A DNA stretch of 64,000 nt from Macrocystis pyrifera (Eukaryota; Sar; Phaeophyceae; Laminariales; Laminariaceae). Shown piece by piece: positions 4,261 through 42,590 of the stretch (position 1 is its first letter; every line of letters begins with the position of its first letter). The position numbers and the translations under genes are program-made. Below the pieces are notes generated by a model. That model saw only the letters and a list, made by a program, of their open reading frames with translations, was not told the origin of the DNA and ran no database searches. The stretch is taken from NCBI GenBank assembly GCA_031763025.1, contig JASSKH010000028.1, positions 5,160,075-5,224,074 of the forward strand. The letters run 5' to 3'.

Positions 4261-4796
4261 AGACTATGGAACTACTGTAGTATAGGAATTGTTCAGGGTG
4301 TGCAATAAATCAACGAGACCAATAGATCATTACGTACCTGGCCCGGTGTCTCATGGTCTTCCTCCCCTTCTGCCCCTCTCTTGTGTTACTCGTGTCCTCG
4401 CGCTCCTCGGTAGTAGCCCGCCCTTCTCCATCCCCGCCTCCACTCATCAAGGACCCAAACTTGCTGCTTAATCCTGTCATGACCCCGATTCCCGCCCCGT
4501 CGGCTCTCGAATCAGCACTTGTTGCGCCATCTGTTATGTCCCCACGCTTCTTGCTGTGTGCAGCACCCGATGACGACATCAGGCCCTATTAATAGAAGAA
4601 ATTGAATATCCAGGAGTAGAACAGGCCGAAGGGTCGGTGCGTTCTGTTGAGGCTTGTCTACCGGGTATATACTCCTGGAAAGCGAACGTCAAGGTTTGAG
4701 TTGTTTCGGATTCGCTGTTTGATCCATTGTTAAGTGTTTGATCCATTGTTAGGTGTGGTACAACACTAGCATACTACTGTGCTATACATAGTGCCG
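4261..4796 (+). other. No gene seen; contains a 19-bp direct duplication
   Basis: GTTTGATCCATTGTTAAGT at 4717-4735 is repeated at 4736-4754 with one change. Otherwise only short, unconvincing reading frames. Confidence 0.6.
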
Positions 4797-5115
4797 GCGT
4801 CCCCGGTGGCGTAGTAGGTGGTCCGCGTGCCTACTGAGATCAATTTCGTGGGTTGTAGTCTCATCGAGTGCATACTCGTAAGGATTTTTTCTTGCATGAA
4901 AAAATTGATTAGCGGAAAGCGCGAAAGCGTGAGTTAGCTACTCCGATGAAGATCGACGAGCAGTGGGAATGCTGAACCCTATGCGCGAAAAAAATGGAGG
5001 CACGTACCGGGGGGGAGAAGGGATGACACCTGTGACCACGGCTGGTCCAGAAGAAGAATGCTGAGGATAAAACCTCCTACGAGTTAAGCTGGAAATTGAA
5101 AGTGATGATAAATTT
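4797..5115 (+). mobile_element. tRNA-derived SINE, copy 1
   Basis: The head carries an RNA polymerase III A box (TGGCGTAGTAGG, about 4806-4817) and a degenerate B box (GGTTGTAGTC, about 4852). A body of about 200 bp follows with a GC-rich stem (GCGGAAAGCGCGAAAGCG) and an A/T-rich tail (GATGATAAATTT). A second copy in the opposite orientation lies at 41452-41772 and matches over the whole length. The two ends of the match define the element. The parent tRNA cannot be named: the head lacks a pairing acceptor stem, as is usual for SINEs. Confidence 0.85.
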
Positions 5116-20860: not shown

Positions 20861-21370
20861 CTACCCTGTCTGCCATCTCCTTCCTACTTTCGTCCACTGT
20901 AATTTCCCTTCGACTCCTGTCCCCCCCCCTCTCGGCATTCCCTTGGTCTGGTTTTCTGCCACTCCTCTTGGTGCCCCATTCCCTTGGACACCACCCACGG
21001 CGGATGCGCGGTGCTGCCTACTCAGCTCAGCCTCAGCTTCGTGCCACCTCACCATGAACCGTTCGACTGCTTCGAGGATCCCCCGGTACCACGTCCCCGC
21101 TTTTTTTGCAGCAGTGGACCACAGCGCGGTCTCAACTCGAAACACCAAGGGGGCAAGTTCCGTTGACCCTTCGGTGGCTCGGAACTCCCCAAGGTCTTTG
21201 ACTATGCATCTATGCCAAGTCTTGAACGGTCCGCCAGGTCTCGGGTTCTCCTCACCAGCCATCGTCCCGAACATCACCCGACTGGGTAATTGATCCTTGC
21301 TTTGCCGTGCCACCCCCCCCCCGCGAAGAAGCGCCGCCGCTTGCGGATGGTCACTTCGATACTCTCGCAA
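20861..21370 (-). pseudogene. LINE C-terminal region
   Basis: After a frameshift near 21300 (at a C run, 21313-21321), the frame resumes as [18 protein letters not shown] and WHRCIVKDL, a C-terminal segment shared by many LINE proteins. It ends at a stop at 20861. Confidence 0.7.
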
Positions 21371-22767
21371 TGTGCCATCTTGAGGCCCTTCGCGTACGAG
21401 AGGGTGGTATGGTCAGTACGAAGTCGGCGCTGGAAGCCAATGGCTCGCAACAGGACTTGGTGGTGAGCCGTTCGAAGCTTGGCAAAGTGTTCCGCTCTGA
21501 GGGTCCACGTCACACATCCGTACAGCAGGGTCTCAATTACCTCGGCCTTCAGCATTCGGACTTTCAGGCTAAGGGGGGCGGTCGTCCTATCATACAGCTC
21601 CGGGCCGAACCGTTTGAGGCATGCTCGCATGAGACGGATCCGTCGGTCGATTTCGAGCGAGAGGTCAGCGTTTTCGTGGATAATGTCGCCTAGGTACAAG
21701 AACTGGGCCGTCTGCTTATACCTCTGGCCTGCTGCTTCGATGACGAGCGGTGGTGCGAGGGTTGTCTGGTCTGGTGTTTGCAGAAGCATTGTCTCCGTCT
21801 TCTGTTTCGATCCCGTAAGGCCTGCTGCTTCGAAGACAGTCACAATGACTGTCATCATTTTCGCGAGCCCATTAGCCGACTTCGAGACAATTGCTGCGTC
21901 ATCGGCGTACAACATGCCCCATACAAGCCTTCTAACGCACGCCAACGGCTCCTGCTTCTCCGTTCCGACTACTCCAGCATCACTGAATTGGACCAAATCC
22001 CTTACGATGGCTAGTACGACGTGTAATGCAACAGCGAGGAATACGTTGAACAGTAACGGTGATAGCACACAGCCTTGCCGCAGCCCCCGCGTCACATCAA
22101 ACCATTCGGAGTGCTCGCCGTCATCCGTACGCACGCGAGCCCGCATGCCATCGCGGAAATTACTGATATTTCTCAGCATCTTGGTTGGTACGCCCAAAGG
22201 TGTGAGTACCTCCCATAACAGTTCTCGGTCGACAGGGTCGTACGCTTTCTGCAGATCGATGAAGCACAAGTACAGGGGGATTTTCCTCTGTCGTCCAAGC
22301 TCTTGCAACCCGACGAACAACATACCAATCGTTGATCGTGCGGGGCGGAAGCCGCACTGTTCCTCCGGGAGTAATTCCACGGTCTAGCAGTAGTTGGGGA
22401 GGCAGGACGCGACGATTTTCAACAAAGCTTTGCCTGCGTGGGCAACAAGGGAAATCCCTGTGTAGTTGTTGCAATTAGTTCGGTCCTTCTTTTTGTGAAG
22501 GGCCTTGATGATCGCATATTTCCATTGCTGGGGGAGTTCTTCTGTTACCCAAACATTGACAAGGATGTTGTGAAAGCACTGGGCGAATGCGGGGTGGTCG
22601 ATTTTCAGCAGTTCGGCCGGGAAACCATCTGGCCCGACAGCATTCCACTTTGGCATCGCTTCCGTCATCTCGTCTATGAATGATTCATCTCCGAGCGACA
22701 GTTTAAGCGGTAGTGGTGGCAAGAGGTCGATGATCGTGGCATCGAGTTTAAGCGATTTCGTGTTCAA
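21274..22767 (-). pseudogene. LINE reverse transcriptase
   Basis: The frame begins with [19 protein letters not shown] and [10 protein letters not shown] (reverse transcriptase block 0/1). A TAG at 22384-22386 interrupts it. It continues with [49 protein letters not shown] and MLYADDAAI, the catalytic YADD. Later blocks include [15 protein letters not shown]. This enzyme copies the element's RNA at the nicked target. The two halves are in the same frame, so the TAG is a single nonsense change. Confidence 0.92.
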
Positions 22768-28569: not shown

Positions 28570-30605
28570 TAGGCTATATGTATTACTATGATTATGTTGC
28601 GGCTCACCACAGGCGACTATTTCTTTCTCCAGTCTTACTTCCAGTCATCCGAGGCTCAGCACAGGCGAGTAGTTTCTTGCCCCCAGTCTTAAATCCAGTC
28701 ATCTCTGCTCGCCTCGGCTCACCACAGGCGAGTATTCTATATGAATTTCGGTCGTGCGTATTTCGGTCGTGCGTGTCGTTGCGTGTCACATGCGTGATGC
28801 TGATTCCTCCGACATCTCGATGTGATGCTGTTGTCGTCACAGAATCATTTTCGCGTACCATTACTGAAATTCTCCAACGAGCCAAACATATATATTCTTT
28901 ATCGCACTGCCTGGCCAACACCGGAGATTTTTTTTTCGTACGTACGTGACAAAAGCCAAGCGTCACAACTCTGTCTCATATAGCCATTGCTATTAATAAT
29001 CTATACGAATTTCGGTCGTGCGTGTCGTCGCCTGTCACATGCGTGATGCTGCTTCCTCCGACTTCTCGGTGTGATGCTGTTGTCTTCACAAAATCATTTT
29101 CGCGTATCATTACTGAAATTCTCCAACGAGCTTAACATATACACATATATATTCTTCATCGCACGGTTGTTGTTGTTGTTGTTGTTGTTGTTGTTGCTTT
29201 CTTCACATTAAACCGTTCTTTCTACCCGTCGACATCCAGCACAACCAGTGTCCGTGCCGATTATTCAATCCTAGAGAGATACAAGTTCGGTAATCACAAA
29301 CTGCCTGGCCAACACCGGAGTTTTTTTTTTCGTATGTACGTGGCAACAAGCGTCATCACTCTCATGGCTATTGCTATTAATATATAACATTGTTACTATT
29401 CATTATATGTATGTATTATTAATATGATAGTATTTTAATAGGCTGTTGTTGTGTGATTCTCGGGTACTCTGTTTTCTTCATTTCGTCTCCCCCAGTTCAG
29501 CAAATGTACGTACCAGGTATAGTATGTATGTGTGTATACCCATGAAGAGTACTATTAATACATACAGCAGCAGGAGTACACGGTCTTCTTCCTCAATGTT
29601 TCAACCCTTTCAAGTCTCTGTCTTATAACCTTGATCCGGGGTGGTCGTACAGAGCAAGCTCTTCTCCTCCCTCCCCACTACTATGCTGTCGAGCATGCGG
29701 TCCTTTCTTTGATGCCTGCGTGTTGCTTTGGGAGAGTGATACATATTACCAGGTATTTTATTAGAGTGTATATAGAGCAAGCTCTTCTACTCCCTCCCCA
29801 CTACTATGCTGTCGAGCATGCGGTCCTTTCTTTGATGCCTGCGTGTTGCTTATGGAGAGTAACACATATTATTTTATTAGAGTGTATTCTGTGTTTCTCG
29901 GCTATTTGTGTTCTTGATTCCGTCTCCCCGGAATCAGCAATTTTACGTACCAAGTATGTATGTACACCCATGAATAGCACTACATACAGCAGTAATAAGT
30001 ATTAATATAGTAGTTGTGGTCTTCCTCACACTACTGTTTCAACCCTTTCAAGCCTCTCTCTGTCTTATAACCTAGATCCGGGGTGGCCGCAGAGGAAGCT
30101 CTTCTCCTCCCTCCTCACAATAAAATTGTCAAGCGTCATCACTCTCATGGCCATTGCTGTTAATAAATAACATTGTTACCATTCAATATATATATGTATT
30201 ACTAAAAGTATTTTATTAGATTGTTGTGTGATTCTCGGGTACACTGTTTTCTTCATTTCGTCTCACCGAGTTCAGCAAATGTACGTACCGGGTACGAGTA
30301 TAGTATATATGTGTGTATACCCATGAAGAGTACTATTAATACATACAGCAGGAGTACACGGTCTTCTTCCTCAATGTTTCAACCCTTTCAAGCCTCTCTC
30401 TGTCTTATAACCTAGATCCGGGGTCGGTCATAGAGCAGGTTCTCCCCCCTCCTTCCCGCTGTTGTGAAGTTTGCACACCTCGGATAACGTAACACTTAAC
30501 GTTTTATGTTAATGTTAGGCGTCAGCGAAAAAAAAACGTAACATTACGTTGCTACGATATCTACTTTCTGGATTTTGTGATAACATGGTGTTAGTGTGTT
30601 AAGAT
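28570..30605 (+). repeat. Repeat R1, intact ~2-kb unit
   Basis: Start 28570 matches 30610 (GTATTACTATGATTATGTTG, then GGCTCACCACAGGCGA blocks). The remainder matches 41071-42590. Internal parts are themselves duplicated: 28740-28920 resembles 28995-29160; 29420-29640 resembles 30210-30430; 29650-29740 resembles 29765-29885. It contains repeat Y (29201-29300), a TTG microsatellite (29164-29195), and the uninterrupted site CTTCACATTAAACCG used as target in R2. No gene recognised. Confidence 0.85.
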
Positions 30606-30974
30606 ATTGGCGGGCGATATGTATTACTATGATTATGTTGCGGCTCACCACAGGCGACTATTTCTTTCTCCAGCCTTACTTCCAGTCATCCGCGGCTCAG
30701 CACAGGCGAGTTGTTTCTTGCCTCCAGTCTTACTTCCAGTCATCTATGCTCGCCTCGGCTCACCACAGGCGAGTATTCTATATGAATTTCGGTCGTGTGT
30801 GTCGTTGCGTGTCACATGCGTGATGCTGATTCCTCCGACATCTCGGTGTGATGCTGTTGTCGTCACAAAATCATTTTCGAGTACCATTACTGAAATTCTC
30901 CAACGAGCTAAACATATATATTCTTTATCGCACTATGTTGTTGTTGTTGTTGTTGTTGTTTTCTTCACATTAAT
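30606..30974 (+). repeat. Repeat R2, left part
   Basis: Second R unit up to the retroelement insertion. Ends in a TTG microsatellite and CTTCACATTAAT. Confidence 0.85.
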
Positions 30975-31306
30975 AAAGAGGAAGGTTGTCGTTGGGGCAA
31001 CCTGGTGTTTGGGGGTAACGGGTAGAAAAGATAAACCAGTGAAGGAATGAGACGGTTTCGGAGGGTTTCCCATATAATAACAAGGGATGTTTAGTACGGG
31101 GGTATGAATGAAAAATAATAGAAACCCCGGATGATAAAGGAAGAAAGACCAAAGCAGTTCAGACACGAGCAAGCAGCGGTAGAGCGGTGTGAAGCGGGGT
31201 CGTCGGGCAGCGAGTATCCAGAATAGATTGCGGACGGGCAAGGCCCTGCACGAGCTGAATAGAACCGGGCAGGGGACGTCAGGGAGTCATCTAGTTGTTT
31301 TTTTTT
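30975..31306 (+). repeat. A1, left split direct repeat
   Basis: Matches A2 (37441-37771) almost base for base, from AAAGAGGAAGGTTGTCG to the T run after GTCATCTAGTTG. Probably holds the 5' promoter and one half of the recombination site. Confidence 0.95.
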
Positions 31307-31375
31307 AGGACGTCAAGGAGTCGTCAAGTGGTCAGCAGTCGTTGAGCCTGTGCGTTGGGAGGGTCGACGGGCAGG

Positions 31376-32006
31376 ATGGCGGAACCTCTTACCGCGATAC
31401 AGCAGCAGGACGAGGAGCACGACAATCTTGTGGGAGGCCCAGGGCCAAGGCGGGGGTCGCCCCAAGGGAACGGGGCGGCCGGTAACGCGGAGGATGATCA
31501 GTCTTCAGCAGGAGGGCCCGGCAACAGCGAAGACGGTAGAGTGCGAACGAATACCCTGAGTGGCCTGGGCACGAGTAGGAATGTGCACTTCGAGGATAGT
31601 CAGATTGTACACCAAGGAGCTCAAATGCGGTCGGGTAGGGGGGGTAGGGGGGGGTACACGTCGCAGGGTAGGGGGCGGGGGGAACGGCTCGTATGGGAAC
31701 CGCGAGCAGTCAAATGCCATGCAACATGCCACACTGCAGCACCACGACCAAAATTTTCCCCGGAAACGAGTCTCAGGGCCCCCCATGGTCGGGTGGAAGG
31801 AGTTCGTACCGGCAGGAGGCGGGGGGGGAGGCGGGCTAGCAATCAGCTCACGAAATCTAACAGGCCCTCACAGGCACCCTGGGGCCCGGGAGGTCAGCCG
31901 CAGCAGCAGCAGCAGCAGGGGTGGGCACCGCAGCAGCCGCATAGCCGGGGCACACCACAGCAGCGACAGCAAAAGTGGGCACCACAGCAAGAAGGGTGGG
32001 CATACA

Positions 32007-32056
<50 letters not shown>

Positions 32057-32875
32057 CACAGCAGCAGCAGCAGCAAGGGTGGGCATCAGAGCAATGCGGC
32101 AGGGAAAACGCGGGGGGGGGGGGGGAGAGGGGGGGGGCATAGGTTGGGGGGGGGAGTACCGAACCCGCGACAACAGCAACAGCGGCCAAGCATGCAGCTA
32201 CAGCAGCAGAAGCAGTCAGACCTCGGGGGGTTCGGGGATGTAAGCGAGTGGGAGATAGACGTGTCGGGGTCGCGACAGCAGCAGATGGAGGCACCCGAAG
32301 GACAGTGGGGGTGGGCGGGGGAGGAGACAAGTCCGTGGGAGAGGGGAGCACGGAGGTTGCACCGGCAGTCACAGCACGAAGCAGCTCCCGGGTGGGGGGA
32401 AGGCAGCAGTTCATTACTCAGCACCAGGTCGCAGTGGGGGGAGGGAGGAGCATCGAATTTCTCGTCCGGGTTGCGAGGTGGGGGGGGGGGGGGGGAGAGA
32501 TGGGGATGGGGAGGTGGGGAGCGGGGAAGCAAGCCATCAGTAGCGGAGACGATGTGGCGCACGAGCAACCGCACAACAGTGGTCTGGTCATCACTGCGCG
32601 GGGGTGGGAAACCCCCACCCTTTGATTCGGCGGAGGCTTTGGGCACGATTCCAGGGACTTTCATCGTCAAGGGGGAAGGGGCACAGCAGGTAGCAGCGCT
32701 GAGCAACATTGATGTGCGGAATTTCGCGCAGAGGGACCATTTTGGCGGGGGGGGGGGGGGGGAGCGCGCAGGTGTCGCTGGACCACAGGGTGGAGGCAGT
32801 GTTTCTTTTGTTGACGTACCTCATGCAGTACGTGGTGGACGAAAACAAAGCCTTTGGCCAAGCGTCGCTGCGTAG
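31376..32875 (+). CDS. Gag-like ORF 1 of the YR element, Gly/Gln-rich
   Basis: ATG at 31376 (MAEPLTAIQQQDEE). The product is low-complexity, rich in Gly, Gln, Arg and Ser (repeated GWAPQQ, SSSSSKGG). A run of about 44 G (32011-32054) codes for poly-Gly. No zinc knuckle is seen in this frame. In other retroelements the first ORF makes the RNA-binding coat protein, and position alone suggests that here. The frame after the G run at 32748-32761 is uncertain: a better protein-like frame (32709-32996; VFLLLTYLMQYVVDENK, then NKLVKRFRVVAQGVKTF) starts near there, so this annotated end may be wrong. Confidence 0.6.
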
Positions 32876-33794
32876 GACGAATAAGCTGGTGAAGCGTTTC
32901 CGGGTGGTCGCGCAAGGGGTGAAGACGTTCCACGCGCAGAATACGCAGGTGGCCCTGTCGGAGCAATTTGAAGCAAAAATTCGTGCAATGTTTTAACAAA
33001 GACCTCCAGGAGTGGTCGGAGGAGGTGGCCCGGCAAGCACATATGTTGAAACAGGAAATCAGCACGTTTCCAGGGCCGAGCGACGTGTACCCGTTGCCCC
33101 TACCGCCGTTCTCGCGGACACATACGTGGGTCACGGCAGCTCCCATCCACCTGGGGGAGGTAGGACACGCCGAGGAGCACGCCGTGGGGGGGTACAAGAG
33201 AGGACGGGGAGGGGGGGAGGGGGGGAGCAGGCGGGGGGACAAGCGGAAGCGGGGCCGCAGGGGGGTGGGGTGGAGGGGGGGGGGGGGGGAACGAGCAAGG
33301 AGTGGGACGGGGAGCAGTGGGGGGGGTGGGGCGGGGAGGAGGGGCGGAGGGGACGGGGCGGGGGAGGCAGGCGGAGGGGGGGGGGAAGGGGGGGGGGGGG
33401 GGGGGGGGGGGAAGGAGCGTACGACCGACCCTGCCGGGGATTATGAGGAACTCGGTGCGTGCCTCCACGAGCCTAAGAGGGGGCTGCCGTGCAGGTACAG
33501 GCACGAAGGCAGGTACAAAACCCCGAAGGGTGCGTATCTGCCGAGGGACGGAGGCGGTTTGGGGGCAAGCGTAAGAGGGAAAGGGACGGGGGAGGGTGGG
33601 GGAGGAGGACGGGGGACGGAGAAGGAGGGGAGGGGAACGACGGGCCGGCGAAGAAATGAGGACACGGGCTCCGCGGCACAGCGGAGCCAACCAAGCGAGC
33701 AATCGTCACGAGCTCGGGGGCGACGGCGACGAGGGCGACGGCGGGGGGTTCGGGTTGGGCGCTTGGCCAGAAGGGGGGTCCGACTCCGGGGTCG
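32760..33794 (+). pseudogene. Gag-like C-terminal region, split over frames
   Basis: Protein-like stretches alternate between frames: VSLDHRVEAVFLLLTYLM to FEAKIRAMF (stop at 32994), then FNKDLQEWSEEVARQAHMLK from about 32985 in the next frame. G-run-encoded Gly/Arg follows (33200-33420). A short Cys/His stretch (ELGACLHEP, LPCRYRHEG, about 33452-33515) may be a degenerate RNA-binding knuckle. Frame changes coincide with homopolymer G runs. Confidence 0.5.
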
Positions 33795-34637
33795 GTGGTT
33801 TTGTCACAAACAGGTGCGATATCCGGCCGGCGCGTTGAAGACCAGAAACGTTGGGAGGTTGCACAGGGGTTGTTGGGGAAGGTGTCGGGGAAATCGGTGA
33901 AGGCGGCAAGCTTAGTGCGAGTTTTAGCTACGACGGCTGGGGCGGTTTTGTCACGAGTAACCGAGGCGGGGGAAGGGTGGGTAGGGAGGGTGGTGCAATG
34001 GTTGGGGGGTTCGTTGACAGCACCCCACATGGATCCAGAGCGCGTACAAGCGTTCTTCGGAGACAAGCACCAATTCCCGGAAATCGACAAGTTGAGGCAC
34101 ATAGCGCGCGTGGGGGTACCGGTAGACGTTGGGCCAGGGGGGGACCTTGCACAGGAACTAGCATATGGAAACCATTCAAACGCGCAGAAATTTAGCGACG
34201 CAGTGTGGGGAAAAGCGGTTGCGGACGTAGCGGGGGGAAGGGCGATTGTTTTCCCGAAGAAGCAAGCAGAGAAGATTCCGGGGCTGCGGGTGTCCCCAGT
34301 TGGGGTAGTAGAAGAGCGCGAAAAGATAAGGATAATCCACGACATGACATTCGAGCACGCAAATGGACGCGGGTCGGTGAACTCGACGACGGATTGGGAT
34401 GAGATTCCGGCATGTGCGCTGGCGGGGGTGATGCATGAGGTTTTACAAAGGGTACTGGGGTTGAGGGTTAAGTTCGGGGATCGAGCGCGAATTCTTATTC
34501 AAAAAATGGACGTCAAAAATGCGTTCAGACAGATCCCAGTAGACCCTGACGGTGCAGCGGCTTTCGGGTATGTACTGGGGGAGTACCTTTTCGTCGATTT
34601 GCGCTTGCAGTTTGGGTGGAGGGCTAGTCCGGGGTGA
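33795..34637 (+). pseudogene. YR-element reverse transcriptase, first part
   Basis: Conserved blocks are KIRIIHDMTFEHANGRG, then KMDVKNAFRQIPVDPDG with the first catalytic Asp (motif A, around residue 235), and VDLRLQFGWRASPG (motif B region). These are typical of DIRS/Ngaro-type reverse transcriptases. The frame stops at TGA 34635-34637 right after GWRASPG; the same frame continues with the expected WGVISAAMQHAQ, so this is a nonsense change, probably of a Trp codon. The protein copies element RNA into DNA. Confidence 0.9.
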
Positions 34638-35179
34638 TGGGGAGTGATATCAGCTGCGATGCAGCATGCTCAACGTAACACCACGAGAGCATCCGCGTCG
34701 TTCTCGTGGGCGGGAGACCGCGCGGTAGAGCACGTGACCGTTGCGCAGGCAACGGGGTGTCCGATAGCACAGTGGCCGGCAGAGTGCGTAGTGCGGCCAG
34801 CGCACGGGGAGGGCCGGACGGCCCAGCCTTTGTGTTTTTTTTTATGGATGATGCCATCTCAGTAGAGGTTCTGTGGGATCCGGAAGGGGCGCGGTGCTTG
34901 GACTTGTCTCGATCGCTAGCGGGAATCCACGAGCAGGCTATGGGCGAGAGGTCAGAAGGGGAGGAACCGTTACTTTCGGGGGAAAAGGTGACAGGCTGGG
35001 CAACGCGACAAGAGGTGTTGGGGTACGATGTTGACACAGAGAGCATGACTATTGCCCTCCCGAAACGAAAGGTAGACGAATTACGCGCGCGATTGGCACA
35101 GTGGCCAGCAGGGCGGCAGACGGCAACGGTGAGGGAGGTGCTAGTGTTGGCAGGAAGTTGCACGACGCATCCTTTGTAA
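34638..35179 (+). pseudogene. YR-element reverse transcriptase, second part
   Basis: After the stop the frame runs (WGVISAAMQHAQ to RTAQP) until a T run near 34837-34846. There it switches to FVFFFMDDAISVEVLW, carrying the catalytic Asp pair (FMDD). GEKVTGWATRQEVLGYDV and LPKRKVDELRARLAQWP follow, the region joining reverse transcriptase to RNase H. The switch at the T run needs one base inserted or lost. Confidence 0.85.
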
Positions 35180-36184
35180 TCCGGCCCGGACGGTACTTCG
35201 TCCGTCGGCTTCTGCAGTTATCTAATCTGCATCTTGATGGGGTGGAGCGGGCCGGGGGGGGGGGGGGGGGGCGTGGGGTAGGTTCAGAAAGCAGAAGGAA
35301 GCGAGACGAGTTTTACGGTTGTCGCGGGAGTTCATGGCAGACGTGGGATGGTGGAGGTGGTTTTTGGAGACGGGGGGGGGGGGTACGGGGGAGAGAGCAT
35401 AACAGCACCGTCTTTCAGCTTCGTGAAGCAACGGCCGAGTAGAACCTGATTTTCGGACGCTTCATTGACAGCGATAGGGGGGTTGTGCATGGAAACGGGG
35501 GTGTACTGGAGATTCGCCCTGCCAGAAGAGGTGCAGAAACGTACGATAAGGGGGGGGGGGGGCAGGCGGTAGCTGATTTAATTTCCATTAACCTGCTGGA
35601 GGTCATGGCCATGGTGGTGACGGCGTTCGTAATGGTGGACGTGAGGGGGGAGAGACCGGGTAGGAAGGGGGAGGCAGTTTTGATGAGGGCAGATAACGAA
35701 GCAGCCGTAACCTGGGTAAAGAGATGTCGAGGGGGGGGGTAAGAAACAAGCGAGAGTAGGGGCATTGGTGAGAATGATGGGGGCGTTGGAAGCAAGGGGA
35801 AGATGGTGTTTTCTGGCAAGACACGTACGGGGGGTCAATAACAGGTTGGCAGATGGTCTGACTAGGTGGCGGGAGGAGCAGATTCCCGAGAAACTGAACG
35901 CAGAATGTCCCGAAATCGCTTGGCAGGTGGAGGAACTGGGACCGGGGGAGCAGCTAATGTGTTCGGAGATATTGCGAGAGAGTTGCAGCTTCGTCTCGAA
36001 AAACTTACGAGGCGAATTGGAGGATGTGGGTGAGCTGGCGATCGTTGGTCGGGAAGGGGTGTTGGCTGCAGAAAGACATGGGGGAGATGGAGTTAGTGGG
36101 GGAGTTGGTCGAATTCATGGGGTAGTGCTGCGCAGAAAAAGCGAACAAGGCGTCGACGGTAGTAGGCAAGTTAGTGGCGATTAA
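35180..36184 (+). pseudogene. YR-element RNase H domain and linker
   Basis: The fragments PGRYFVRRLLQLSNLHLDG (35186 on) lead through G runs at 35255-35272 and 35377-35387. The RNase H core then reads ISINLLEVMAMVVTAFVMV (Glu), RADNEAAVTWVKRC (Asp) and HVRGVNNRLADGLTRW (Asp). A G run at 35731-35739 shifts the frame between the second and third block. RNase H removes the RNA strand during reverse transcription. The C-terminal 130 residues lead into the recombinase. Confidence 0.85.
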
Positions 36185-37076
36185 CTTCTACCATGAGCAG
36201 TTCGTGGGGCTTTCGGTGCCCATGAGTAACCCACTGATCAGATCGGTGAGGCAAGGTATCAAGAGGGCACACGTAGAGAGGGGTAGTCAGCAGAGGGTAA
36301 GAAGACCATTGACTTGGGGGATGCTGAGGGGGATGCAAGGAAGCACTGCATCATGGGGGGAAGGGGGGAGGATGTTATGGATAGGTCTGGCACTGTCCTA
36401 CTTTTTGATGTTACGAGCGTCAGAGTTGTTTGCCAAGGAGAGAGGGGTGTATCATAAGGTATACTGCTTAAGGAGGGGGGATGTTGCGTTTTTCAGAGAT
36501 AACGATCAACTGGCGGAGGGTAGCATTCGGGAAGCAAATAAGGTAGAGGTGAGGTTCAGGGGATCGAAGGGAGATCAAGGAAGAAAAGGGGCGGTGCTAG
36601 TCAGGACAAGACCAGGCCGGGGTGGAGGAGAGGAAAGGGGGGCAGTGGGGCTATTGGTGGAGCTTTTCGAGATGTACAATGACGGGGAGTTGACAGGGGA
36701 AGCCCCTTTGATGACATACAGAGGAACGGACGGTTGGAGGGTCTGGTCCAGGGGGAAGGCAACCCAGTGCTTGAGGAAAGGTCTCGCCAGTGGAGGGAGG
36801 AGGTAGAATGAAGAGGGGAGAGGAGCAGGGGCAAGTCTGATTCCGGAAGAATTCGCGTTGCATTCGGGGAGAATAGGGGGGGCAACCAGACTGGCCGCGA
36901 GAAGAGTGCCAGAGGCAGTGATTAAGAAAGAAGGAAGGTGGTCGTCGGACTCGTTTATGGTGTACGTTAGGGCTAATATGGAAGACCCGGTATGGGTATC
37001 AGAGGTGTTGGAGCATGGGGGGGGGGAGTTTGAGAGACAGCCAGGACAAGGGACGAGATGGGGTGGAATACTATAG
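36174..37076 (+). pseudogene. YR-element tyrosine recombinase
   Basis: The N-terminal helical region includes NPLIRSVRQGIKRAHVE. ALSYFLMLRASELFAKE carries the first catalytic Arg. After a TAG at 36804-36806 the same frame continues to LHSGRIGGATRLAARRV (the H-x-x-R motif), EGRWSSDSFMVYVRANM with a Trp in the usual last-motif position, and the nucleophile Tyr. This enzyme would join the circular DNA copy to the target by strand exchange. All catalytic residues are visible; the single TAG is the only break seen. It ends just before B1. Confidence 0.9.
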
Positions 37077-37181
37077 GTGCTACTCCGCCCGGTATAGTAT
37101 GGACCGCTTGGGAGGCTGCAAAGTACCCAAACAGACCTTACACATATCCGGACGAAGAAGGAAGGAACCGCGGTCTCGTGA

Positions 37182-37440
37182 GGGGAGGCGTTCCACTAGC
37201 GGAACGCGACCGGTAAGGAGGTCGACCGCGTTTCGTTGGTGTGGAAGGGGGTGGGAGGCGTAAGCAAGCGAAAGGGACAAGGCAACCCCCATTTCTTTCT
37301 TCCCTCCGGCTATTTTATTTAGGGGTAAGGAAGGCGTACGCATGCGGGGGGGGGGGACGGGCCAGGGCACCCCCCCCCCTCTCCCACCATTTCGGCTTCT
37401 TCAATTAATATCAAGCATTTTTTCGTGGAAGTGGACAACC
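37182..37440 (+). repeat. B1, internal split direct repeat
   Basis: Matches B2 (40795-41070). Contains AGGAGGTCGACCGCGTTTCG, a G run and ATCAAGCATTTTTTCGTGG, ending GTGGACAACC directly against A2. Confidence 0.93.
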
Positions 37441-37771
37441 AAAGAGGAAGGTTGTCGTAGGGGCAACCTGGTGTTTGGGGGTAACGGGTAGAAACGATAA
37501 ACCAGTGAAGGAATGAGACGGTTTCGGAGGGTTTCCCATATAATAACAAGGGATGTTTAGTACGGGGTATGAATGAAAAACAAAAGAAATCCCGGATGAT
37601 TGAGGAAGAAAGACCAAAGCAGTTCAGATACGAGCAAGCAGCGGTAGAGCGGTGTGAAGCGGGGTCGTCGTGCAGCGAGTATCCAGAATAGATTGCGGCC
37701 GGGCAAGGCCCTGCACGAGCTGAATAGAACCGGGCAGGAGACGTCAGGGAGTCATCTAGTTGTTTTTTTTT
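37441..37771 (+). repeat. A2, right copy of split direct repeat A
   Basis: Near-identical to A1. The B1/A2 junction (GGACAACC AAA GAGGAAGG) is the sequence expected at the joint of a circular intermediate. Confidence 0.95.
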
Positions 37772-37845
37772 CCCGCCCACCCTCCCGCAACAATTTTCCA
37801 CGGCGGATGGGCAAACGGAGGGGAAGGAGACACAGTGGCCGATTA

Positions 37846-40760
37846 GTAATGGCTTAATCCCGATCGCACGGGCCGTTTGAAACGGAATCATTACGCTCAT
37901 AATCGTTTGGTTTTCGTGGTGGGCTCCCGATCGCACGGGCCGTTAGAAACGGAACCACTAGAAAGAACGCGTAAGTGGTGGTCGATTAAGTGGTGGCATA
38001 ATCCCGATCGCACGGGCCGTTAGAAACGGAATCATCACATAATCGTTTAGCAATCGTGGTGGGTTCCCGGTGCGAACGGGCCGTTAGAAACGGAACCACC
38101 CGAAAGCACAGGCACATAGTGGTCGATTAGTAGTGATTTAATCCCGATCGCACGGGCCGTTTGAAACGGAATCGCTACACTCATAATCGTTTGGTTTTCG
38201 TGGTGGGCTCCCGATCGCACGGGCCGTTAGAAACGGAACCACTAGAAAGAACGCGTAAGTGGTGGTCGATTAAGTGGTGGCATAATCCCGATCGCACGGG
38301 CCGTTAGAAACGGAATCATCACATAATCGTTTAGCAATCGTGGTGGGTTCCCGGTGCGAACGGGCCGTTAGAAACGGAACCACCCGAAAGCACAGGCACA
38401 CAGTGGTCGATTAGTAGTGATTTAATCCCGATCGCACGGGCCGTTTGAAAACGGAATCATTACACTCATAATCGTTTGGTTTTCGTGGTGGGATCCCGAT
38501 CGCACGGGCCGTTAGAAACGGAACCACTAGAAAGAACGCGTAAGTGGTGGTCGATTAAGTGGTGGCATAATCCCGATCGCACGGGCCGTTAGAAACGGAA
38601 TCATCACATAATCGTTTAGCAATCGCGGTGGGTTCCCGGTGCGAACGGGCCGTTAGAAACGGAACCAACCGAAAGCACAGGCACATAGTGGTCGATTAGT
38701 AGTGATTTAATCCCGATCGCACGGGCCGTTTGAAACGGAATCACTACACTCATAATCGTTTGGTTTTCGTGGTGGTCTCCCGATCGCACGGGCCGTTAGA
38801 AACGGAACCACTAGAAAGCACGCGTAAGTGGTGGTCGACTAAGTGGTGGCATAATCCCGATCGCACGGGCCGTTAGAAACGGAATCATCACATAATCGTT
38901 TAGCAATCGTGGTGGGTTCCCGGTGCGAACGGGCCGTTAGAAACGGAACCACTCGAAAGCACAGGCACATAGTGGTCGATTAGTAGTGATTTAATCCCGA
39001 TCGCACGGGCCGTTTGAAAACGGAATCACTACACTCATAATCGTTTGGTTTTCGTGGTGGGATCCCGATCGCACGGGCCGTTAGAAACGGAACCACTAGA
39101 AAGCACGCGTAAGTGGTGGTCGATTAAGTGGTGGCATAATCCCGATCGCACGGGCCGTTAGAAACGGAATCATCACATAATCGTTTAGCAATCGTGGTGG
39201 GTTCCCGGTGCGAACGGGCCGTTAGAAACGGAACCACCCGAAAGCACAGGCACATAGTGGTCGATTAGTAGTGATTTAATCCCGATCGCACGGGCCGTTT
39301 GAAAACGGAATCACTACACTCATAATCGTTTGGTTTTCGTGGTGGGATCCCGATCGCACGGGCCGTTAGAAACGGAACCACTAGAAAGCACGCGTAAGTG
39401 GTGGTCGATTAAGTGGTGGCATAATCCCGATCGCACGGGCCGTTAGAAACGGAATCATCACATAATCGTTTAGCAATCGTGGTGGGTTCCCGGTGCGAAC
39501 GGGCCGTTAGAAACGGAACCACCCGAAAGCACAGGCACATAGTGGTCGATTAGTAGTGATTTAATCCCGATCGCACGGGCCGTTTGAAACGGAATCACTA
39601 CACTCATAATCGTTTGGTTTTCGTGGTGGGCTCCCGATCGCACGGGTCGTTAGAAACGGAACCACTAGAAAGCACGCGTAAGTGGTGGTCGATTAAGTGG
39701 TGGCATAATCCCGATCTCACGGGCCGTTAGAAACGGAATCATCACATAATCGTTTAGCAATCGTGGTGGGTTCCCGGTGCGAACGGGCCGTTAGAAACGG
39801 AACCACCCGAAAGCACAGGCACATAGTGGTCGATTAGTAGTGATTTAATCCCGATCGCACGGGCCGTTTGAAACGGAATCACTACACTCATAATCGTTTG
39901 GTTTTCGTGGTGGGCTCCCGATCGCACGGGTCGTTAGAAACGGAACCACTAGAAAGCACGCGTAAGTGGTGGTCGATTAAGTGGTGGCATAATCCCGATC
40001 GCACGGGCCGTTAGAAACGGAATCATCACATAATCGTTTAGCAATCGTGGTGGGTTCCCGGTGCGAACGGGCCGTTAGAAACGGAACCACCCGAAAGCAC
40101 AGGCACACAGTGGTCGATTAGTAGTGATTTAATCCCGATCGCACGGGCCGTTTGAAAACGGAATCACTACACTCATAATCGTTTGGTTTTCGTGGCGGGA
40201 TCCCGATCGCACGGGCCGTTAGAAACGGAACCACTAGAAAGCACGCGTAAGTGGTGGTCGATTAAGTGGTGGCATAATCCCGATCGCACGGGCCGTTAGA
40301 AACGGAATCATCACATAATCGTTTAGCAATCGTGGTGGGTTCCCGGTGCGAACGGGCCGTTAGAAACGGAACCACCCGAAAGCACAGGCACATAGTGGTC
40401 GATTAGTAGTGGCTTAATCCCGATCGCACGGGCCGTTTGAAAACGGAATCACTACACTCATAATCGTTTGGTTTTCGTGGTGGGCTCCCGATCGCACGGG
40501 CCGTTAGAAACGGAACCACTAGAAAGCACGCGTAAGTGGTGGTCGATTAAGTGGTGGCATAATCCCGATCGCACGGGCCGTTAGAAACGGAATCATCACA
40601 TAATCGTTTAGCAATCGTGGTGGGTTCCCGGTGCGAACGGGCCGTTAGAAACGGAACCACCCGAAAGCACAAGCACATAGTGGTCGATTAGTAGTGGCTT
40701 AATCCCGATCACACGGGCCGTTTGAAACGGAATCACTACACGCATAATCGTTTGGCAGTC
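37846..40760. repeat. Structured higher-order satellite inside the YR element
   Basis: About 10.2 copies of a ~284-bp unit (starts near 37846, 38131, 38415, 38700, 38984 and so on). Each contains four ~71-bp subunits, roughly 40 in all. Every subunit has two adjacent hairpins, CCCGATCGCACGGG and CCGTTAGAAACGG (or CCGTTTGAAACGG), enclosed by a third stem such as TAGTGATT/AATCACTA or GTGGT/ACCAC. Each can thus close as a three-way junction. Compensating versions (CCCGGTGCGAACGGG) keep the stem. Spacers repeat ATAATCGTTT and GTGGTCGATTA, which can also pair. It does not code and lies between A2 and B2. Confidence 0.95.
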
Positions 40761-40794
40761 GAGGTGGGTCCCCGGCGGGGAGGCGTCTGGGGGG

Positions 40795-40957
40795 GGGAGG
40801 CGTTCCACTAGCGGACCGCGACCGGTAAGGAGGTCGACCGCGTTTCGTTGGTGTTGGAGGGGGTGGGAGGCGTAAGCAAGCGAAAGGGACAAGGCAACCC
40901 CCCTTTCTCTCTTCCCTCCGGCTATTTTATATAGGGGTAAGGACGGCGTACGCATGC

Positions 40958-40988
<31 letters not shown>

Positions 40989-41070
40989 AGGGCACCCCCC
41001 CCCCCCCCCCCACCATCATTTCGGCTTCTTCAATTAATATCAAGCATTTTTTTCGTGGAAGTGGACAACC
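40795..41070 (+). repeat. B2, terminal split direct repeat
   Basis: Matches B1, with a longer G run (about 28 G from 40959) followed by a C run near 40997-41012. Ends GTGGACAACC against repeat R2 sequence. Confidence 0.93.
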
Positions 41071-42590
41071 AAACCGTTCTTTCTACCCGCCGACATCCAG
41101 CGCAACCAGTGTCCGTGCCGTTTCTTCAATCCTAGAGAGATATAAGTTCTTTGGTCACAAACTTCCTGGCCAACACCGGAGTTTTTTTTTTCCTATGTAC
41201 GGTGGCAACAAGCGTGATCACTCTCATGGCTATTGCTATTAATATATAACATTGTTAGTATTCCTTATATATATGTATTATTAATGTAATAGTTTATTAT
41301 AATAGTATTTTAATGGAGTGTTGTGTGATTCTCGGGTACTCTGTTTTCTTCATTTCGTCTCCCCGAGTTCAGCAAATGTACGTACTGGGTATAGTATGTA
41401 TGTGTGTTTGAAGTGTACTATTAATACATTTTATGTATTTTTAATTTTTTTATTTATCATCACTTTTACTTTCCAGCCCCTCGTAGGAGGTTTTACCCTC
41501 GACGATCTTCTGGACAAACCGTGGTCACAGGTGTCGTCCCTTCTCCCCCCCGGTACGTGCCTTTAGTTTTTATCGCGCATAGGGTTCAGCATTCCCACTG
41601 CTCGTCGATTTTCATCGAATGTACAGCTAACTCACGCTCTCGCGCTTTCCGCTAATCAATTTTATGCAAGAAAAAGTCCCTATGAGCATGCACTTGGTGA
41701 GACTCGAACTCACGAAATTGATCTTGATAGGCTCGCGGACCACCTACCAAGCCACCGGGGACGCCGTACAGCAGGAGTACACGGTCTTCTTCTTCAATGT
41801 TTCAACCCTTTCAAGTCTCTGTCTTATAACCTTGATCCGAGGTAGTCGTATAGAGCAAGCTCTTCTGCTCCCTCCCCACTACTATGCTGTCGAGCATGCA
41901 GTCCTTTCTTTGATGCCTGCGTGTTGCTTTGGGAGAGTAATACATATTATTTTATTAGAGTGTACAGTATGTATTCTGTGTTTCTCGGCTATTTGTGTTT
42001 TTGATTCCGTCTCCCGGAATCAGCAATTTTACAAATACCAAGTATGTATGCATACCCATGAAGAGTACTAATAATAGTAGTTGTGGTCCTTCTTCCTCAC
42101 TACTGTTTCCAAGCCTCTCTCTGTCTAATAACCTGGATCCGGGGTGGCCGCAGAGGAAGCTCATCTCCTCCCTCCTCACAATAGCATTGTCAAGCATGTC
42201 ATGTGCTGTGTGGCAATTTCTGCTGCAGCAACTATCAATAACAAGGTACATCGACTGGTGTGTTCTTTTGAGGTTTTTTCCCCCCGATCTTTCGCACAAT
42301 CCATTTTTTATATTCGCCCTCATTTATTTGCTCGTTTTATTTTGCTCCCTTCTGGGAGGCGTCGTATATAACCTAGATCCGGGGTCGGTGACAGAGCAGG
42401 TTCTCCCCCCGCCTCCCCGCTGTTGTGAAGTTTGCACACCTCGGATAACGTAACACTTAACGTTTTATGTTAATGTTTGGCGTCAGCGAAAAAAAAAACG
42501 TAACATTACGTTACTACGATAACTGCTTTGTGGATTTCGTGATAACATAGTGTTAAGTGTGTTATGATATTGGCGGGCGATCGCGTAACG
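41071..42590 (+). repeat. Repeat R2, right part
   Basis: Resumes at AAACCGTTCTTTCTACCCG, the exact continuation of the R1 target, and matches R1 through GATATTGGCGGGCGAT near 42570. Interrupted by the SINE at 41452-41772. Confidence 0.85.
41452..41772 (-). mobile_element. tRNA-derived SINE, copy 2
   Basis: Minus-strand element. Its A box (TGGCTTGGTAGG) and B box (GTTCGAGTC) are better preserved than in copy 1, and its T-arm-like stem GTGAG/CTCAC is intact. It splits repeat R2 between ATTAATACAT and TACAGCAGGAGTACAC, so it is a later insertion. Target duplication is not clear. Confidence 0.88.

Follow-up and report, generated by a model that had tools for sequence, protein, structure and literature searches.

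TOC1 of Chlamydomonas, a split-repeat tyrosine recombinase (YR) element of the PAT group reportedly described by Day and Rochaix in 1991, is said to carry an internal array of ~76-bp repeats; it belongs to another lineage and has another repeat unit than the element studied here. The Ngaro elements of Cafeteria burkhardae have the order A1-[ORFs]-B1A2B2, possess a reverse transcriptase (RT) and a YR, and occur also as solo AB repeats; they are ~6 kb long, and the term 'tandem repeat' is absent from the main text of that report (PMC8547959). In the brown alga Ectocarpus, 15 Ngaro and 5 PAT-like families are known, and an internal array is not described in the main-text passages on them (PMC12477816). 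In about half of the Retand LTR elements examined, tandem arrays lie between pol and the 3′ LTR (PMC11963269), and the tandem arrays of retrotransposons can seed satellites (PMC7004042). The Helentron-type Cg_HINE elements of the oyster show satellite-like central repeats, fixed ends, variable copy number and no target duplication, but they are non-autonomous rolling-circle DNA elements (PMC7492417).

Here, we analyzed a window of 64,000 nucleotides from the genome of the brown alga Macrocystis pyrifera (contig JASSKH010000028.1, positions 5,160,075 to 5,224,074). It contains a YR retrotransposon that differs from the Cafeteria Ngaro elements in that a 3-kb array parts A2 from B2 and in that its solo units have the form A-[array]-B. 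Retand elements resemble it in that their tandem arrays, placed between pol and the 3′ repeat, are specific to a family; they are LTR elements with an integrase and arrays in about half of them (PMC11963269), whereas in the window family every sampled end bearing B2 has one. In the literature searched, mostly papers outside subscription, no tandem array of the A2-B2 type was found in YR elements. Internal tandem arrays in retrotransposons are already known, and that of the window family is a new, regular form. A first-pass annotation of the locus, which knew of no such cargo in Ngaro/PAT elements, was too strong on this point in view of the Retand arrays and of the array reported for TOC1.

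Structure of the Carrier Retrotransposon

The following features of the element were located (window positions).

30975..41073, + strand: whole YR retrotransposon copy, A1-ORFs-B1-A2-[array]-B2, delimited by split direct repeats, with flanks matching an uninterrupted duplicate of the site
30975..31306, + strand: A1 repeat, 96.4% identical to A2
31346..32875, + strand: Gly/Gln-rich ORF in gag position, no Pfam family matched
33660..35179, + strand: RT region in two frames (ORFs 33660-34637 and 34679-35179)
36126..36965, + strand: tyrosine recombinase region, in-frame stop at 36804-36806, H-S-G-R codons from 36861, Y codon at 36963
37173..37443, + strand: B1 repeat, 88.6% identical to B2
37434..37456, + strand: B1/A2 junction GACAACC-AAAGAGGAA-GGTTGTC, inverted arms round a 9-bp centre
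37441..37771, + strand: A2 repeat, 96.4% identical to A1
37772..37833, + strand: 62-bp spacer from A2 to the array, present in most other array-bearing copies
40785..41073, + strand: B2 repeat, 88.6% identical to B1
28990..29460, + strand: empty site, a second copy of the target that lacks the element, found by sequence comparison with the element flanks

The direct repeats are split in the order A1-ORFs-B1A2-B2 with the internal repeats downstream of the YR, and YR and RT lie on the same strand, both as in the Ngaro group; B2 stands apart from A2 because the array intervenes. The identities of A1 with A2 (96.4%) and of B1 with B2 (88.6%) place the array between A2 and B2. A methyltransferase, the absence of which separates Ngaro from PAT/DIRS, had no Pfam match in six element ORFs, in a scan that missed the RT and the YR too. 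The recombinase of the element resembles Cre: a profile built from 11 database relatives matched Cre with an E value of 0.0011, and the predicted structure of one relative (P0031, mean pLDDT 61.3) gave Tre/Cre as the top fold matches (best E 1.2e-3, none below 0.001). Pfam showed no YR match in the window ORFs or in the relatives, and the only named relative in the recombinase database search was the Ectocarpus protein P0075 (40% identity). In the second RT ORF, which belongs to a region with 30 database relatives, we read the motif F-M-D-D, which we take to be an RT signature. Pfam RVT_1 reached E 0.23 in one relative, below the cut-off, and no solved structure was matched. Since the RT region changes frame, the RT of the window copy is broken, and so is its recombinase, because the in-frame stop precedes the H-S-G-R and Y codons. 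The split direct repeats and the Cre-like recombinase bear out the earlier reading that a YR retrotransposon carries the array, in its A2-B2 interval.

The host stretch is duplicated (28570-30960 and 41071-42580), with one copy filled by the element and the other empty. Comparison with this one empty site indicated integration without a long target duplication, the junction being marked by no more than a run of A common to both and a single additional T. Judged by its sequence, the B1/A2 junction is a likely candidate for the recombinase crossover site; blast of the array against this junction gave no match. On the minus strand at 41690-41765 lies a tRNA-like stretch, perhaps a SINE by eye, in which ARAGORN calls no tRNA. 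Elsewhere in the window, at 21274-22383 of the minus strand, there is a reverse transcriptase ORF (Pfam RVT_1, E 4.9e-23), by eye of non-LTR type.

The Tandem Array in the Window

The array and the first copy of its core have the following positions.

37834..40784, + strand: tandem array of 41 subunits in T1-T2-T3-T4 units (TRF, pattern search)
37859..37885, + strand: first copy of the 27-bp two-hairpin core CCCGATCGCACGGG-CCGTTTGAAACGG (pattern search, column variability)

The 41 subunits of ~70 bp each amount to 10.3 copies of a 284-285-bp unit. TRF called the array at 37830-40755 (period 285, 10.3 copies, 98% matches), and a pattern search of the window revealed 41 two-hairpin cores with a spacing of 77/67-68/77/63. 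Both methods agree with the ~10 units of 284 bp, each of four ~71-bp subunits, that the first-pass annotation had described between A2 and B2, and its placement was likewise confirmed: A2 ends at 37771 and B2 starts at 40785, directly after the array. The unit consists of four subunit types in the fixed order T1-T2-T3-T4, the array has T1 at both ends, and a degenerate part-subunit lies at its 3′ edge, adjoining B2. Each subunit is made up of CCCG(N6-7)CGGG and CCGTT(N3-4)AACGG side by side, enclosed by a weaker closing stem, and the outer stem CGATTA/TAATCG is common to T1 and T3. The two hairpins claimed for each subunit were found, as sequences, in 41/41 window subunits, the second one starting with T instead of C in two. 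Units u5 and u6 are identical in sequence. When up to 3 mismatches were allowed, the core 20-mer gave 31 matches in the window, all inside the array, with 0 expected by chance.

An Rfam search over 37000-41500 gave 32 weak matches, 0 at the gathering score and 0 within the array, and thus no known RNA family or ribozyme. A tRNA origin was rejected, as ARAGORN found no tRNA. Viral contigs searched by the core pattern, by the B1|A2 junction and by the RT yielded nothing relevant; the sole viral-contig match (L009) has non-repetitive surroundings and looks like chance. Searches of bacterial and archaeal genome contigs and of phage records revealed no such array.

Arrays Elsewhere in the Genome

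The genome searched was that of the window itself (537,376,219 bases, 223 contigs). The best 40 of 144 candidates from the array search were scored, and the listed rows were grouped into 40 loci including that of the window. Together with 5 arrays met via the recombinase search, the 39 other listed loci (20 + 8 + 11) gave 44 further arrays. Subunits in these arrays were called by template search, as a fuzzy pattern missed some of them. A2 or its 62-bp spacer lies directly 5′ of the array in 42/44 and a B repeat lies 3′ in 38/44, with both sides present in 36 and neither in 0. The question of whether the array is always found between A2 and B2 was therefore answered by 44/44 arrays adjoining an element repeat, and the 7 arrays met later also adjoin A2 or B (7/7). 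None of the 44 was free of element repeats, which speaks against a source of the subunit outside the element; arrays independent of mobile elements, the mark of a satellite, thus number 0/44.

The copy number, the variability of which had been asked about as well, ranges from 4 to 67 subunits among the complete arrays (n = 36), and none has fewer than 4. Sizes are scattered over the A2 tree, with 41 beside 9 subunits. The strict T1-T2-T3-T4 order is kept in 22/40 listed arrays overall. In the first 20 loci and the window (389 subunits), it was seen in 15/21, with T1 at the start in 19, at the end in 18 and at both ends in 17/21. The 8 most divergent loci showed it in 0/8, partly, perhaps, because the templates miss or mistype subunits there, and the last 11 loci fetched in 7/11, the order being disturbed in 4/11. 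The locus with 67 subunits (L030) is a rearranged array with altered order and extra T3-T4 pairs.

Four copies of a related family, with ~65-72% nucleotide identity in parts of the recombinase, were also fetched. Two of them (L053, L054) have, in place of B, a 953-955-bp direct repeat (97% and 96%) in copies ~1.1 kb apart, and TRF found no tandem array in this ~1.1-kb interval. The other two (L055, L056) showed no such repeat pair within 5.3 kb. Because L053 and L054, the two comparable copies of another family, show none by TRF, the tandem array appears to belong to the family of the window element.

Element Copies Sampled without Using the Array

The best 150 of 2268 candidates from a recombinase search were scored, and the first 15 by rank outside the array list were taken as a sample; C207:7793802, near L029, was passed over. 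In the 1.9 kb past the recombinase match, the array followed A2 in 5/15 copies and was absent from 10/15. In one of the latter (L040), the recombinase stops at window-equivalent position 37085, and 5.7 kb further on L068 resumes at 37081 and runs through B1, A2, the array and B2. The pair (G000:C201:1211700-1218700), linked by coordinates alone, is read as one copy with a nested insertion of ~5.5 kb, a 5-bp overlap of its halves and an intact 3′ end with the array. As L040 is thus split, 6/15 copies have the array and 9/15 lack it.

Copies without the array end within A2 at position 263 (L041, L043), 230 (L050), 323 (L051) or 328 (L049), or at 329-330 in a host context common to all four copies concerned (L038, L039, L042, L048). 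L050 is the only copy in which the cut A2 adjoins a remnant of B (31 bp from its end) with no array. L038, L039, L042, L048, L049 and L051 stop a few bases from the A2 3′ end in three host contexts, a possible recurrent truncation point.

A search with the B repeat was handled in the same way: the best 40 of 274 candidates were scored and sorted by hand into 20 B1 copies (recombinase before) and 20 B2 copies. The B2 copies, chosen by B sequence, have the array directly before them in 20/20, two (L069, L070) without A2 in the fetched piece. Among the 20 B1 copies, 12 run through A2 to the array and 7 break earlier (L041, L043, L075, L076, L077, L079, L080); the remaining one, L071, was not followed downstream. 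Copies lacking the array, named at the outset as evidence against its belonging to the element, thus exist as 14 distinct cases, every one of them broken inside A2 or at most ~25 bp past it, with 0 joining a whole A2 to B2. Every complete element end sampled among these best-scoring candidates carries the array.

Two units consist of A-[array]-B with AAA ends (L016:2609-4814 and, reversed, L018 2686-5422), and no element DNA lies within 2.6-2.8 kb on either side. They are the analogue of solo LTRs, with the array kept. In L026 (reversed, 4274-4936), a B repeat is joined directly to an A repeat with arrays on both sides, as in tandem or nested units.

Conservation of the Core and Pairing of the Stems

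Column variability was 1.8% in the 27-bp core and 4.6% in the linkers (p 9e-5; p 0.0085 with one majority per locus). A2 (2.75%) and part of the recombinase (2.9%) were taken as one copy per locus and are not strictly comparable with these figures. Stems and loops did not differ in variability (p 0.41). When T2 was compared with T3, 27/27 core letters were the same, whereas the 24-nt flanks differ at 28/57 aligned positions (p 1e-6). Excess core conservation was found in four of the other five type pairs (p ≤0.011), T2 against T4 showing none (p 0.11). This comparison of types and loci indicates a constraint on the sequence of the core.

Pairs were counted by a fixed register in the window and then by template alignment in 34 arrays, where 485 of ~540 subunits found by looser scans (389 in the first 21 arrays, 130 in the 8 most divergent ones, the remainder among the arrays fetched later) were used (157 distinct patterns), those with a closing stem not fully aligned being dropped. 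The search for compensatory changes proposed in the first-pass annotation came out negative: 165 stem-breaking changes were counted (T1 40, T2 42, T3 36, T4 47), of which 0 were restored, and shuffles restore ~3. Pairing across the 34 arrays was not clearly higher than in shuffles for any type, and no covariation emerged. As changes in decayed copies are mostly neutral, this tally is compatible with selection on active copies, yet it gives no support for it.

In the window, 624/656 stem cells pair. The 5′ closing strand is identical in three of the four types, and 6/24 type permutations pair equally well. A shuffle of distinct rows of the window array gave p 0.003; since the rows are related, this value was discounted, being outweighed by the test on types and by the 34-array set. 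Variant letters keep pairing in 16/60 cases in the closing stems (11.9 expected), 10/28 in the first hairpin (10.8) and 6/34 in the second (7.6), some T2 rows being shifted. One closing-stem pair changes with place: it is A-T in the first T1 (exact stem in 13/21 arrays), G-C in the last T1 (16/21) and G.T in the commonest inner T1 (15/21), but G-C there in the window. Of the claim that differences between subunits preserve pairing, this one pair stands, and the rest is not sustained given the equal permutations and the 165 uncompensated breaks.

Minimum free energy folds were two side-by-side hairpins in 28/41 window subunits (T1/T3 21/21, T2 7/10, T4 0/10), the other 13 folding otherwise, and in B-type subunits 1-2 outer pairs are missing. 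Mean folding z values per subunit were -0.50 for T1, -0.37 for T2, -1.69 for T3 and -1.60 for T4 (15 each), with controls at -0.28 (sd 1.32, n = 50). Three whole 9-subunit arrays had z values of -1.65 to -2.3 on the + strand (20 shuffles each), and one 285-bp stretch had -3.2 as RNA and -6.2 as DNA. The idea that T4 carries its first hairpin inverted (edit distance 2, against 3 in direct orientation, p ~0.02) was dropped, most other T4 cores reading CCCGGTACGAACGGG. The structural selection put forward for the array is not supported by these data, with 0/165 breaks restored, weak subunit z values, stems as variable as loops and 0/10 T4 subunits folding as drawn.

Probable Origin and Possible Role of the Array

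We consider it likely that the array is a tandem repeat of higher order that is specific to this family, is inherited within it and occupies the noncoding A2-B2 interval of an Ngaro-like YR retrotransposon; its core is most likely a sequence-level site. This reading starts from the observed location, presence, order, size and core conservation and extends to a probable amplification route and function. As the order and spacing of the subunits suggest, a two-hairpin unit of ~70 bp would have grown into a ~140-bp pair and then into the four-part 284-bp unit in the common ancestor of the sampled copies. New copies of the element would inherit the array by retrotransposition, and the number of units would then shift by unequal exchange or copying slippage, which is inferred from sizes of 4-67 subunits in whole-unit steps. 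The conserved core would most likely act as a repeated docking site for a protein on DNA or RNA, recognized at the sequence level and tolerated or used by the element. Its low variability agrees with a cis-acting site present many times, but could also stem from copying of the core between subunits and not from selection, and does not prove a three-way junction. Points against the favoured reading are the lack of excess core conservation between T2 and T4, the disturbed order in 6/21, 8/8 and 4/11 listed arrays, and L050 with its cut A2 and B remnant but no array.

The chance that the repeat is a passive passenger, born once in a noncoding interval that tolerates it and carried along without a role, is just short of even; its palindromes would then do no more than favour slippage or exchange. 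The spread from 4 to 67 subunits, the uncompensated stem breaks with weak folding and the related family without a tandem array all agree with such a passenger, as do the similar Retand arrays of unknown function (PMC11963269), but it leaves unexplained why the core is less variable than linkers of the same units and why the array is kept in 20/20 B2 copies, with 0/36 complete arrays below 4 subunits. It is possible, though less probable than not, that the core would bind a host or element protein and so form a repeated cis-acting site, in the role of an enhancer, an insulator or a signal for RNA packaging. A comparable repeated cis site is known from gypsy, with its array of Su(Hw) sites. Conservation of the core across types and loci, the constant position of the array and its retention in solo A-array-B units would suit this possibility, although the last point is equally predicted for a passenger. 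That the array might be an obligate cis-acting organ, its 27-bp two-hairpin docking sites being needed for the life cycle of the element, seems rather doubtful.

It is improbable that structural selection maintains a three-way junction of RNA or DNA with a part in circle formation, recombinase binding or packaging, as first proposed for this locus. That proposal can draw on the hairpin sequences in every window subunit, on the z values of the 285-bp stretch (-3.2 as RNA, -6.2 as DNA) and on the one closing pair that is A-T, G.T or G-C by place in the array, but these are set against 165 stem breaks with 0 restored, stems no less variable than loops and weak subunit z values. Moreover, 13/41 window subunits, including all T4, fold otherwise, B-type subunits are short of 1-2 outer pairs, and array and B1/A2 junction have no blast match. 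Almost no credence can be given to an independent genomic satellite entered by elements, or to an assembly artefact; the array has the regularity of a satellite, yet 44/44 further arrays adjoin the element's own repeats, and two precise solo units have element ends.

The favoured reading, an inherited array belonging to the family, means that a single retrotransposon family was the place where a satellite of higher-order structure arose and multiplied. If the array were an obligate organ, the working 3′ end of the element would be a higher-order satellite, and the element would spread satellite arrays whose length can be adjusted, some of them in the form of solo A-[array]-B units. Dozens of array copies of varied length and divergence in one genome make two questions testable, namely, what role internal tandem arrays have for retroelements and how transposons seed satellites.
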